NCBI GenBank assembly: GCA_022843485.1
Contig: JALHNM010000001.1
Coordinates: 744,001 to 808,000 of the forward strand
From: Fimbriimonadaceae bacterium
Lineage (GTDB): Bacteria; Armatimonadota; Fimbriimonadia; Fimbriimonadales; Fimbriimonadaceae
Reading direction: 5' to 3'
Length of the DNA: 64,000 bases
The position numbers were made by a program, and so were the translations under genes. Positions 53,830 to 60,538 of the stretch are shown here, one piece after another (within the stretch, counting starts at the first letter, position 1; the number at the start of each line of letters is the position of its first letter). The notes under the pieces are model-generated. The model saw only the letters and a program-made list of their open reading frames with translations. It had not been told where the DNA came from and did not search any database.

Positions 53830-53860
53830 CATGCCTCAACCCTGCGAGGGTTGAGGCATG
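53830..53860 (-). repeat. Perfect 14-bp hairpin downstream of the DUF6266-like gene
   Basis: CATGCCTCAACCCT and its exact complement flank a GCG loop, 16 nt past the stop codon of the minus-strand gene. It is the most complete member of the repeat family at 52311-52384 and may act as a 3'-end structure. Confidence 0.75.
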
Positions 53861-53876: not shown

Positions 53877-55016
53877 CTAGACCACAACCCGCCCCAGCCA
53901 CAGCAACCCGGTCGCCTGCCCGGTGGCCGCTTCGACGAGCCTGATCGCGCAAGCATAAGTCCCTGGCCCCACCGGCACCGTCACCGTCAGCCCGCCCGGC
54001 TCGAACCGGGCGAACCGCTTCAGCCTCGCCTTCTTGGCCGAGAACCCGTCGCCGTGCGACCGCAGCCTCTGCAGGTAGAGCGCCGTCGCCACCCCCGGGG
54101 AGTTCGGTCGGTCGCTAGTGAACGCCACCCCTGAAGTCAGGGGTTCGGGGGTCGGGGTTAGGGGTTTCGGGGTTCGGGTTTCGGGGTTCGGGCTGTGGAC
54201 AGCGCTTTGTGGAGTTTGCTGAGCATCATTCCCGTGCGCGCCGCGTGGCTCTGCTCGTCCTCGGTCTTCAGGTCTGGGTAGACCATCGCCGTCAGCTTCA
54301 GAAGCGTCGCCAGTTCCGCCTGGCTCCCCCGAGCGACGCTCGGGAACTGGAGGTACTCCTTCCGTCCCGCCCGGGCATAGCCCTCCGCGATGTTCGCCGG
54401 GATCGAGACCGCCGCTCGCCGCATCTGGCTCGCAAGGCCATAAAGCTCCTCCTTCGGCAGCCTCCGGGTCAAGGAGTAGACCTTCTGCGCCGTCACCATC
54501 GCCAGTTGCCACACTTCCAACTCTTCGTAACTCCGCACTGCCCCCTAGTACCCGATCCCCACCCCCCGAAACCCGACCCCCCACACCCGAACCCCGATCC
54601 CCCGGCCCCGAACCCCGACCCCCGACAACCGAAACCCGAACCACCACATGGTCCCCCAGGAACCGCGACGCCGGGGGCAGCAGGGGTGGCCACTGCCCGG
54701 GGTTGAGCCGCATGAAGGTCAGCGCGAGCGATAGGAAGGCCGTGTTCGCCTGCGTCCGCTTGGCCCCCGGGCCGCCGGGTCCCGGCGTCGCCGCCCACTC
54801 CCGCCAGGCGTCCTGCTCGGCGGGGGTCAGGTTTCGGTAGAGCGCGACCGCCGCGTCGAAGTTCGCCCGCTGCTCGGTCTGGGCGGGGGTGCGGGGGTTC
54901 GCCACCCGGGGCCGCTCCCGCACGAACGTCCGCCCGTCCTCGGTCTGGTAGAAGAACGCGTTCCCCACCCGCCCCCTGATCGGCGGGAACAACCCGCCCT
55001 GCACGACTTCGGCCAT
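53877..55016 (-). CDS. DUF6266-like protein interrupted in frame by a four-helix-bundle element
   Basis: The frame has an N-terminal part (IRGRVGNAFFYQTEDGRTFV, RVANPRTPAQTEQRANFDAA, LTPAEQDAWREWAA) and a C-terminal part (FTSDRPNSPGVATALYLQRL, TVTVPVGPGTYACAIRLVEA) that align with the two halves of the protein at 59861-60538. Between them about 168 codons of Gly/Arg/Pro low-complexity sequence are the translation of an insertion. The reading frame stays open across it. The start is set at MAEVVQGG; an ATG at 55028 is possible. Confidence 0.7.
   Translation of the reverse strand: MAEVVQGGLFPPIRGRVGNAFFYQTEDGRTFVRERPRVANPRTPAQTEQRANFDAAVALYRNLTPAEQDAWREWAATPGPGGPGAKRTQANTAFLSLALTFMRLNPGQWPPLLPPASRFLGDHVVVRVSVVGGRGSGPGDRGSGVGGRVSGGGDRVLGGSAELRRVGSVATGDGDGAEGLLLDPEAAEGGALWPCEPDAASGGLDPGEHRGGLCPGGTEGVPPVPERRSGEPGGTGDASEADGDGLPRPEDRGRAEPRGAHGNDAQQTPQSAVHSPNPETRTPKPLTPTPEPLTSGVAFTSDRPNSPGVATALYLQRLRSHGDGFSAKKARLKRFARFEPGGLTVTVPVGPGTYACAIRLVEAATGQATGLLWLGRVVV
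54132..54640 (-). mobile_element. Putative IVS-like element with G-rich inverted repeats and four-helix-bundle gene
   Basis: The insertion is ~510 bp. Its ends are inverted, imperfect arrays of a GGGTTTCGGGGTTCGG-type unit: G-rich on the minus strand at 54541-54640 and C-rich at 54140-54192. It carries one gene for a 23S-rRNA-IVP-like protein. A CCCCTGA/TCAGGGG palindrome (54128-54143) marks the right junction. Boundaries come from alignment to the uninterrupted homologue at 59861 and are approximate. Confidence 0.65.
54158..54538 (-). CDS. Four-helix-bundle protein (23S rRNA intervening-sequence protein family)
   Basis: The 126-residue protein is a clear member of the IVP/S23 family: SYEELEVWQLAMVTAQKVYS, LPKEELYGLASQMRRAAVSI, PANIAEGYARAGRKEYLQF and ARGSQAELATLLKLTAMVY. 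The family includes proteins encoded in 23S rRNA intervening sequences and Avd of diversity-generating retroelements. A GTG start is preceded by AGGGGG. It is nested, same strand and different frame, inside the DUF6266-like gene. No reverse transcriptase is near. Confidence 0.88.
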   Translation of the reverse strand: MRSYEELEVWQLAMVTAQKVYSLTRRLPKEELYGLASQMRRAAVSIPANIAEGYARAGRKEYLQFPSVARGSQAELATLLKLTAMVYPDLKTEDEQSHAARTGMMLSKLHKALSTARTPKPEPRNP

Positions 55017-55028
55017 ACCCCAGATCAT

Positions 55029-59860: not shown

Positions 59861-60538
59861 ATGATCGTCAAGTTGGGCATGGGGGTGAAGGCCTGGTCGG
59901 GCAAGGGCACGAACATGGTCTTCAACGACACTGAGTTCGGCACGGTGGGGCGCGACTATGTGATCCCGGCGAACCCGAACACGCCGCCGCAGGAGGCGGC
60001 TCGCTCTTACTTCAAGCGGGCGACCCAGGCCTTCGAGGTCTTGCCGAAGGCGAAGGTGGACGCTTGGAACGTCTACGCCTCGCAGTTCAAGACCCGGAAC
60101 AAGGTGGGCAAGTTGCGCGAGAAGAAGGGCCTGAACGTCTTCACCGCGTTGGCGACGAAGTTCCTGCAGGTGACCCCGAGCGGGACGATCCCGCAGGACC
60201 CGCCGACTTCGGACTTCAACGGGGACGGCGCGACCATCACGGTGACGGCGGGGACGGGCAAATTGACCTTCTCGAGCACCTTGCCCAATTCTAGCGGGGT
60301 GGTCACGGAGCTGCTCTTCCAGCGGCTCGTGAACGGCAACCGCAAGCCGGGCAGTGAGTACAAGACGGGGGCCTATGTAGCCTTCATCCCGGGGACTCTG
60401 AGCCGGGACGTGACGGTGCCGCCGGGGTTCTACGCCGCGGCGTACCGCTTCGTGCGGACGGCCACGGGGCAGCAGTCGGAGATCCGCAGCCTGCCGGTGA
60501 GCCAGGTCAACCTGGCCGTCGCCAAGCGCGCGGCCTGA
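59861..60538 (+). CDS. DUF6266-like protein, uninterrupted homologue
   Basis: The 225-residue protein has the pattern GKGTNMVFNDTEFG, VIPANPNTPPQEAARSYFKR, LPKAKVDAWNVYASQF, a mid-part FSSTLPNSSGVVTELLFQRL and the end DVTVPPGFYAAAYRFVRTAT. It aligns to both halves of the gene at 53877-55016 and so defines that insertion. The family is short, beta-rich in the C-terminal half and of unknown function; there is no signal peptide. Confidence 0.65.
   Translation: MIVKLGMGVKAWSGKGTNMVFNDTEFGTVGRDYVIPANPNTPPQEAARSYFKRATQAFEVLPKAKVDAWNVYASQFKTRNKVGKLREKKGLNVFTALATKFLQVTPSGTIPQDPPTSDFNGDGATITVTAGTGKLTFSSTLPNSSGVVTELLFQRLVNGNRKPGSEYKTGAYVAFIPGTLSRDVTVPPGFYAAAYRFVRTATGQQSEIRSLPVSQVNLAVAKRAA

Follow-up and report, generated by a model that had tools for sequence, protein, structure and literature searches.

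The window analysed here, a stretch of 64,000 nucleotides of Fimbriimonadaceae DNA, contains a DUF6266-like gene with a second gene nested inside it on the same strand.

Host gene, insert and IVP gene in the window

The host open reading frame (ORF), at 53877..55028 on the minus strand, has no stop codon and comprises 383 amino acids. Its N-terminal half (54627..55016, minus strand) and C-terminal half (53880..54131, minus strand) are homologous to uninterrupted relatives and are separated by an insert of 495 bp, or 165 codons (54132..54626, minus strand). The IVP/S23 four-helix-bundle gene, at 54158..54538 on the minus strand with its TIGR02436 domain at 54203-54514, is crossed by the host ORF in the +2 frame. 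The upstream arm (relative to the IVP gene; 54549..54642, minus strand) is G-rich on the gene strand and is built of degenerate units of approximately 7 bp, of the GGGTTTC/GGGGTTC type. The downstream arm (54140..54196, minus strand) is its reverse complement, C-rich on the gene strand, and the C-terminal tail of the IVP protein extends into it. The units vary between 6 and 8 bp and no single perfect repeat is present; nevertheless, the two arms align with a score of 49, compared with a best score of 26 among 30 dinucleotide shuffles. The RNA of the element folds somewhat more stably than its shuffles (z=-2.66).

An earlier note, made from the sequence alone, had placed an IVP/S23 gene inside a host gene on the same strand and in another frame, between inverted arrays, and both statements are borne out by the PF05635 and TIGR02436 matches, the host ORF at 53877-55028 and the arms at 54140-54196 and approximately 54549-54642. 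Its phrase 'nested in frame' applies to the host, the frame of which is kept, and not to the IVP gene, which lies in another frame. The host frame is open, as the note had it, over an insert that homology sets at 495 bp rather than approximately 510. The kinship that it drew between the host halves and the uninterrupted paralog in the same window (59861..60538, plus strand) also stands, albeit with a weak family label (Pfam DUF6266, E=0.009, under the gathering score).

The host family has approximately 20 paralogs in the source genome and up to 14 in related genomes. The closest relative of the host (genome G008; identity of 61-66%) has 18 bp at the insert site, and a paralog in the same genome has 24 bp. 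Other in-frame repeat inserts occupy the same loop in several host-family copies (L175-L178 and L182). Just 3' of the host gene, at 53830-53860, lies a 31-bp palindrome-like hairpin, CATGCCTCAACCCTGCGAGGGTTGAGGCATG, of which no second copy was found in the window with up to three mismatches allowed. No Rfam match at the locus exceeded the gathering score, and the presence of an intron or other known RNA element was rejected on this ground.

The IVP protein of the window matches PF05635 (E=1.6e-29; 102.7 bits against a cut-off of 33.8) and TIGR02436 (98 bits against a curated cut-off of 24), and has a solved relative in XCC0516 of Xanthomonas (PDB entry 2gsc, E=3.6e-22). The match to the Avd model is weak (16.4 bits, with a cut-off of 80). 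The IVP gene is the sole TIGR02436 gene of the 2.96-Mb source genome, and 25 of 61 relatives carry such a gene. No match to it was found among 50,697 phage records, which leaves carriage of the element by phages without support. In seven Chloroflexi genomes (G142, G193, G135, G154, G191, G124 and G163), IVP matches lie inside ORFs of 430-630 amino acids that are open in the IVP frame, and IVP fusions may exist there. To our knowledge, IVP/S23 proteins have gone for decades without an assigned function; binding of the inverted structure would be a guess at their role, by analogy with Avd.

Inverted arrays at IVP loci and their placement

A set of 207 distinct TIGR02436 loci was drawn from the 61 relatives, from a scan of genome contigs and from further genomes. 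Inverted arrays of short units (score of at least 28) are present at 173 of these loci, in many phyla, so that the arrays for which the earlier note would have searched the flanks of other family members are a general feature. An arm score of at least 30 was reached by 77% of 108 loci, versus 0.6% of 540 size-matched control segments; the controls were taken from the same loci because flank pairs mismatched across loci, many of which share similar units, make a poor null.

A period of 7 predominates among the arm units, and the word itself varies from locus to locus (CAGTTGG, GTCGTGA, CGTAAAT, GCGGTTTG, TGATGAAG and TAGGCAG, for example), so that a conserved terminal inverted repeat sequence is absent. 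Within one locus, both arms carry a common unit. This is seen in the groES-groEL spacer, where the units differ among genera while the arms of each copy match, and where the IVPs of several genera belong mostly to one clade. The lengths of the left and right arrays are correlated (Spearman 0.65, n=173), and 150 of 160 upstream arms (150:10) are rich in G on the coding strand. Mismatches between the arms show no G-U-compatible bias (93, versus 132 non-wobble transitions), which argues against base pairing in RNA as the cause of their similarity. We infer that the arms are maintained by copying at the DNA level rather than by selection for RNA pairing; replication slippage combined with fold-back copying would yield such matching.

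Most of the IVP elements are intercistronic, in sense orientation and beside the upstream stop codon. In 53 clear intergenic cases, both neighbours lie on the IVP strand in 41, both on the opposite strand in six, and the arrangement is mixed in six. The upstream stop codon is mostly within approximately 10 bp of the arm, and in Mesorhizobium, as read from the sequence, the arm unit TAGGCAG itself provides it. Reading of the flanking ORFs places elements between nuoC and nuoD, pheS and pheT, argC and argB, and groES and groEL. Six signature motifs of 23S rRNA are absent from all 207 loci, and the surroundings of the window copy match no rRNA family.

Copies inside genes, empty sites and arrays lacking an IVP gene

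At 14 loci, the element is spanned by a host ORF with 40 codons to either side. All of these ORFs are on the coding strand and read the element in +2 relative to the IVP gene, none in frame 0 or +1, and they were found partly because they are open. On the IVP tree, the copies located within genes group together, and the 14 cases therefore represent fewer independent events. The hosts are mainly Eco57I-type methylases, including the DISARM methylase DrmMI, with insertion in four different loops (assigned with Pfam and PADLOC), together with a DUF1156 methylase, carbamoyl-phosphate synthase and the DUF6266-like genes of the window and of genome G016. In two Fibrobacterota loci (L045 and L049), the element lies close to the 5' end of prepilin-like genes, likewise in +2. 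With arrays at 173 of 207 loci and a spanning host ORF at 14, the earlier idea of an IVS-like unit that enters protein-coding genes gains support. An antisense spanning ORF (L021) was dropped, as the locus has a GC content of 71% and no arms. One Anaerolineales methylase gene (L081) holds four in-frame inverted arrays that lack an IVP gene, in addition to one IVP element.

The frame rule was also seen where frame played no part in the selection: the +2 frame is open at 10 of 10 loci at which both flanks match one host protein, in a homology test that ignored frame but drew its hosts from the spanned cases and so is only partly independent. When the IVP codons were shuffled synonymously, the chance of a stop-free +2 frame was 0.01-0.65 per gene, with a product of 9e-14 over rows some of which are related. 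Overall, 20 of 123 IVP genes are stop-free in +2, against 4.6 expected.

Eight in-gene pairs whose members come from separate sites or genomes (the nearly identical L212 and L283 were left out) differ at codon positions 1, 2 and 3 of the IVP gene by 207, 146 and 476 changes, respectively, and thus mostly at the third. Identity in these pairs is 0.61-0.81 for the IVP protein and 0.32-0.59 for the host-frame (+2) peptide, in which Gly, Ser, Asp and Arg are abundant. Together, the third-position variation and the divergent peptide indicate that the IVP is selected as a protein, and that the host frame is selected only to stay open. A frame kept open fits translation by read-through; excision at the RNA level would not need it.

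One of the methylase loops is contiguous in ten genomes and carries in-frame inserts in approximately twenty, every measured length being a multiple of three. These inserts comprise natural loops, inverted arrays lacking an IVP gene (L328, L331, L333, L334, L339, L342 and L338) and one IVP element. The host family of the window likewise contains, at the same place, an in-frame inverted array without an IVP gene (L174). The earlier note had counted arrays of this kind against its proposal of a mobile unit; their presence at the same host loops (L174 and the methylase loop) gives a mixed outcome, in that such coincidence of place speaks less for chance than for relatives of the element that consist of arrays alone. 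The carB gene is uninterrupted across the junction in approximately 30 related genomes; the interrupted copy lies on a 3.6-kb contig that lacks the 5' part of carB, and for this reason the case carries no weight in our conclusions.

A presence/absence polymorphism was found between two Chloroploca genomes with flanks of 97-98% identity (L364 versus L363), only one of which has an element at the drmA-drmB junction (genes assigned with PADLOC). The counterpart has 142 bp of ordinary sequence there; where the element is present, the last part of drmA and the first part of drmB have been replaced by it. This single polymorphic site shows no target duplication, and no transposase was found for the element. 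In Moorena, two IVP copies of 92% identity at unrelated sites share only the ORF, from about position -25 to the stop codon, and their arms differ in sequence and even have opposite orientation; the IVP gene and the arms may thus be exchanged or move separately. Between two Moorena loci (L219 and L108), a 27-bp sequence, ACCTGATAGTTATGCAAACCGCCGTAA, is found between arm and gene in one and past the downstream array in the other, and in a further locus (L242) a second small palindromic repeat of the TGGCCACGCTACGCGAAC type lies inside the IVP gene itself. The Chloroploca polymorphism makes it likely that the element is mobile.

Proposed read-through element and known systems

We consider it probable that the insert in the window belongs to a widespread family of IVS-like, translationally transparent elements, which would be tolerated by read-through with no need for excision. 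In such an element, of approximately 0.45-0.65 kb, two inverted arrays of mostly 7-bp units enclose an IVP/S23 gene, and the element lies in sense orientation in transcribed units, either just past the stop codon of the upstream operon gene or within a reading frame. In the latter case, host ribosomes would translate through it in the +2 frame relative to the IVP gene, adding a hydrophilic stretch rich in Gly, Ser, Asp and Arg to a loop of the host protein, and the IVP, conserved in its own frame, would be made from an internal start. Slippage would alter the number of units, and copying between the arms or a fold-back step would keep them alike. As the arms would be re-copied as near-perfect inverted copies at the DNA level, the inverted structure is conserved and not its sequence, and the best reading is that recognition of the element rests on that structure. 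A broader proposal, which we advance tentatively and hold somewhat less likely to be right than wrong, is a bacterial class of mobile elements recognised by structure, for which any short-unit inverted array could serve as ends, whose ends would be remade on themselves, and which would insert in sense orientation with a +2 linker frame.

The explanation closest to the known rRNA elements is removal of the IVP segment from the mRNA through RNase III cleavage of a stem formed by the paired arms. It would account for an architecture like that of the rRNA IVS, with its RNase III-cut stem (PMC4990558), for the sense orientation and for the somewhat more stable fold of the RNA of the window's element. 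However, excision would free the host frame from staying open, yet the frame is open, which makes excision unnecessary, and the lack of G-U-compatible enrichment among arm mismatches also stands against it. Cut rRNA stays held together, whereas cut mRNA does not, and we know of no religation after such a cut in mRNA. Processing of the insert at the RNA level, which the earlier note had entertained, is therefore unlikely, and RNA excision is rejected as the main reason for tolerance in view of the open frame and the absence of wobble bias. That low-complexity sequence simply expands in tolerant loops and spacers, where IVP genes happen to lie and nothing is mobile, would suit the natural variable loops and IVP-less arrays in the same host loops, the variation of units between copies and the missing target duplication. 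It is quite unlikely given that IVP genes of many phyla, at sites unrelated to one another, are surrounded by arms, that IVP relatives from different phyla cluster although they lie in different genes, and that close Chloroploca genomes differ by presence and absence.

Mobilisation in trans by a reverse transcriptase (RT), with the IVP acting like Avd, can draw on the known homology to Avd (PMC10053308), on the weak model match of the window IVP and on the sense orientation. An RT (PF00078) was detected in just 10 of the 61 relatives and went undetected in 19 of the 25 IVP-bearing genomes, and the single RT match of the source genome is on another contig; RT dependence thus finds no support, and we regard this route as very improbable. 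The remaining reading, of G-quadruplex arrays that regulate neighbouring genes, is suggested by the G runs of the window's own G-rich arm and by the GGGAATC heptamers of Xanthomonas and Nostoc, which form quadruplexes in vitro (PMC4692102). A quadruplex motif occurs at just 55 of 173 loci, and 66 of 173 arms contain neither GGG nor CCC. Quadruplexes, which the earlier note had raised, are ruled out as a general feature or mechanism by these arms, and the reading is hardly credible.

Read-through elements of the kind proposed would give the IVP/S23 family a context, as part of an element that has inverted unit arrays and occurs in many phyla, both in operons and in frame within genes, and tie it to heptamer repeats that were known separately. 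The low-complexity inserts of DISARM and restriction-modification methylases would be explained, and overlapping genes that evolved for tolerance could be put to the test in a case in which one frame serves the element and the other is a linker of the host. If the structure-recognised class is real, an element can inhabit essential or defence genes without silencing them, and the rRNA IVS, the heptamer arrays of cyanobacteria and Xanthomonas, and low-complexity peptides of predicted proteins (GVGSRESGV...SPLPTPHS) would be united.

The rRNA IVS heptamers and the GGGAATC arrays are already known; in the open-access literature, we found no description that links non-rRNA IVP genes to such arrays or reports a fixed read-through frame. 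The IVS of 23S rRNA (Leptospira and Coxiella) resemble the present elements in that a long inverted repeat encloses an IVP gene in its loop, over approximately 430-500 bp, and in Coxiella the S23 ORF is preceded by tandem GACAGAT heptamers of strain-variable number and the stem is cut by RNase III (PMC4990558). The present elements, however, lie in protein-coding or intercistronic sequence and not in an rRNA gene, have arms that are arrays of locus-specific units, and have a host that would be read through, whereas the rRNA host is fragmented.

The GGGAATC/GGGGAYT heptamers of Xanthomonas and Nostoc (and the cyanobacterial STRR) share the period of 7 and form paired convergent arrays between aligned ORFs, adjoining stop codons, with the G-rich strand after the upstream stop and the opposite strand before the next ORF (PMC4692102). 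Their description, as quadruplex repeats, does not mention S23/IVP, whereas many of the arms reported here have no G runs and enclose an IVP gene. Avd of the diversity-generating retroelements has a homologous four-helix-bundle fold, as PF05635 is homologous to Avd (PMC10053308), but no RT or template repeat was found with the present element, and the window IVP is far under the Avd cut-off. Rickettsia palindromic elements (RPE) and other in-frame bacterial MITEs are, like the present element, palindromic and tolerated in frame inside ORFs (PMC2229807). The RPE, however, measure 105-146 bp, have a conserved sequence and carry no separate gene, whereas the present element has a conserved gene in another frame and arms of unconserved sequence.
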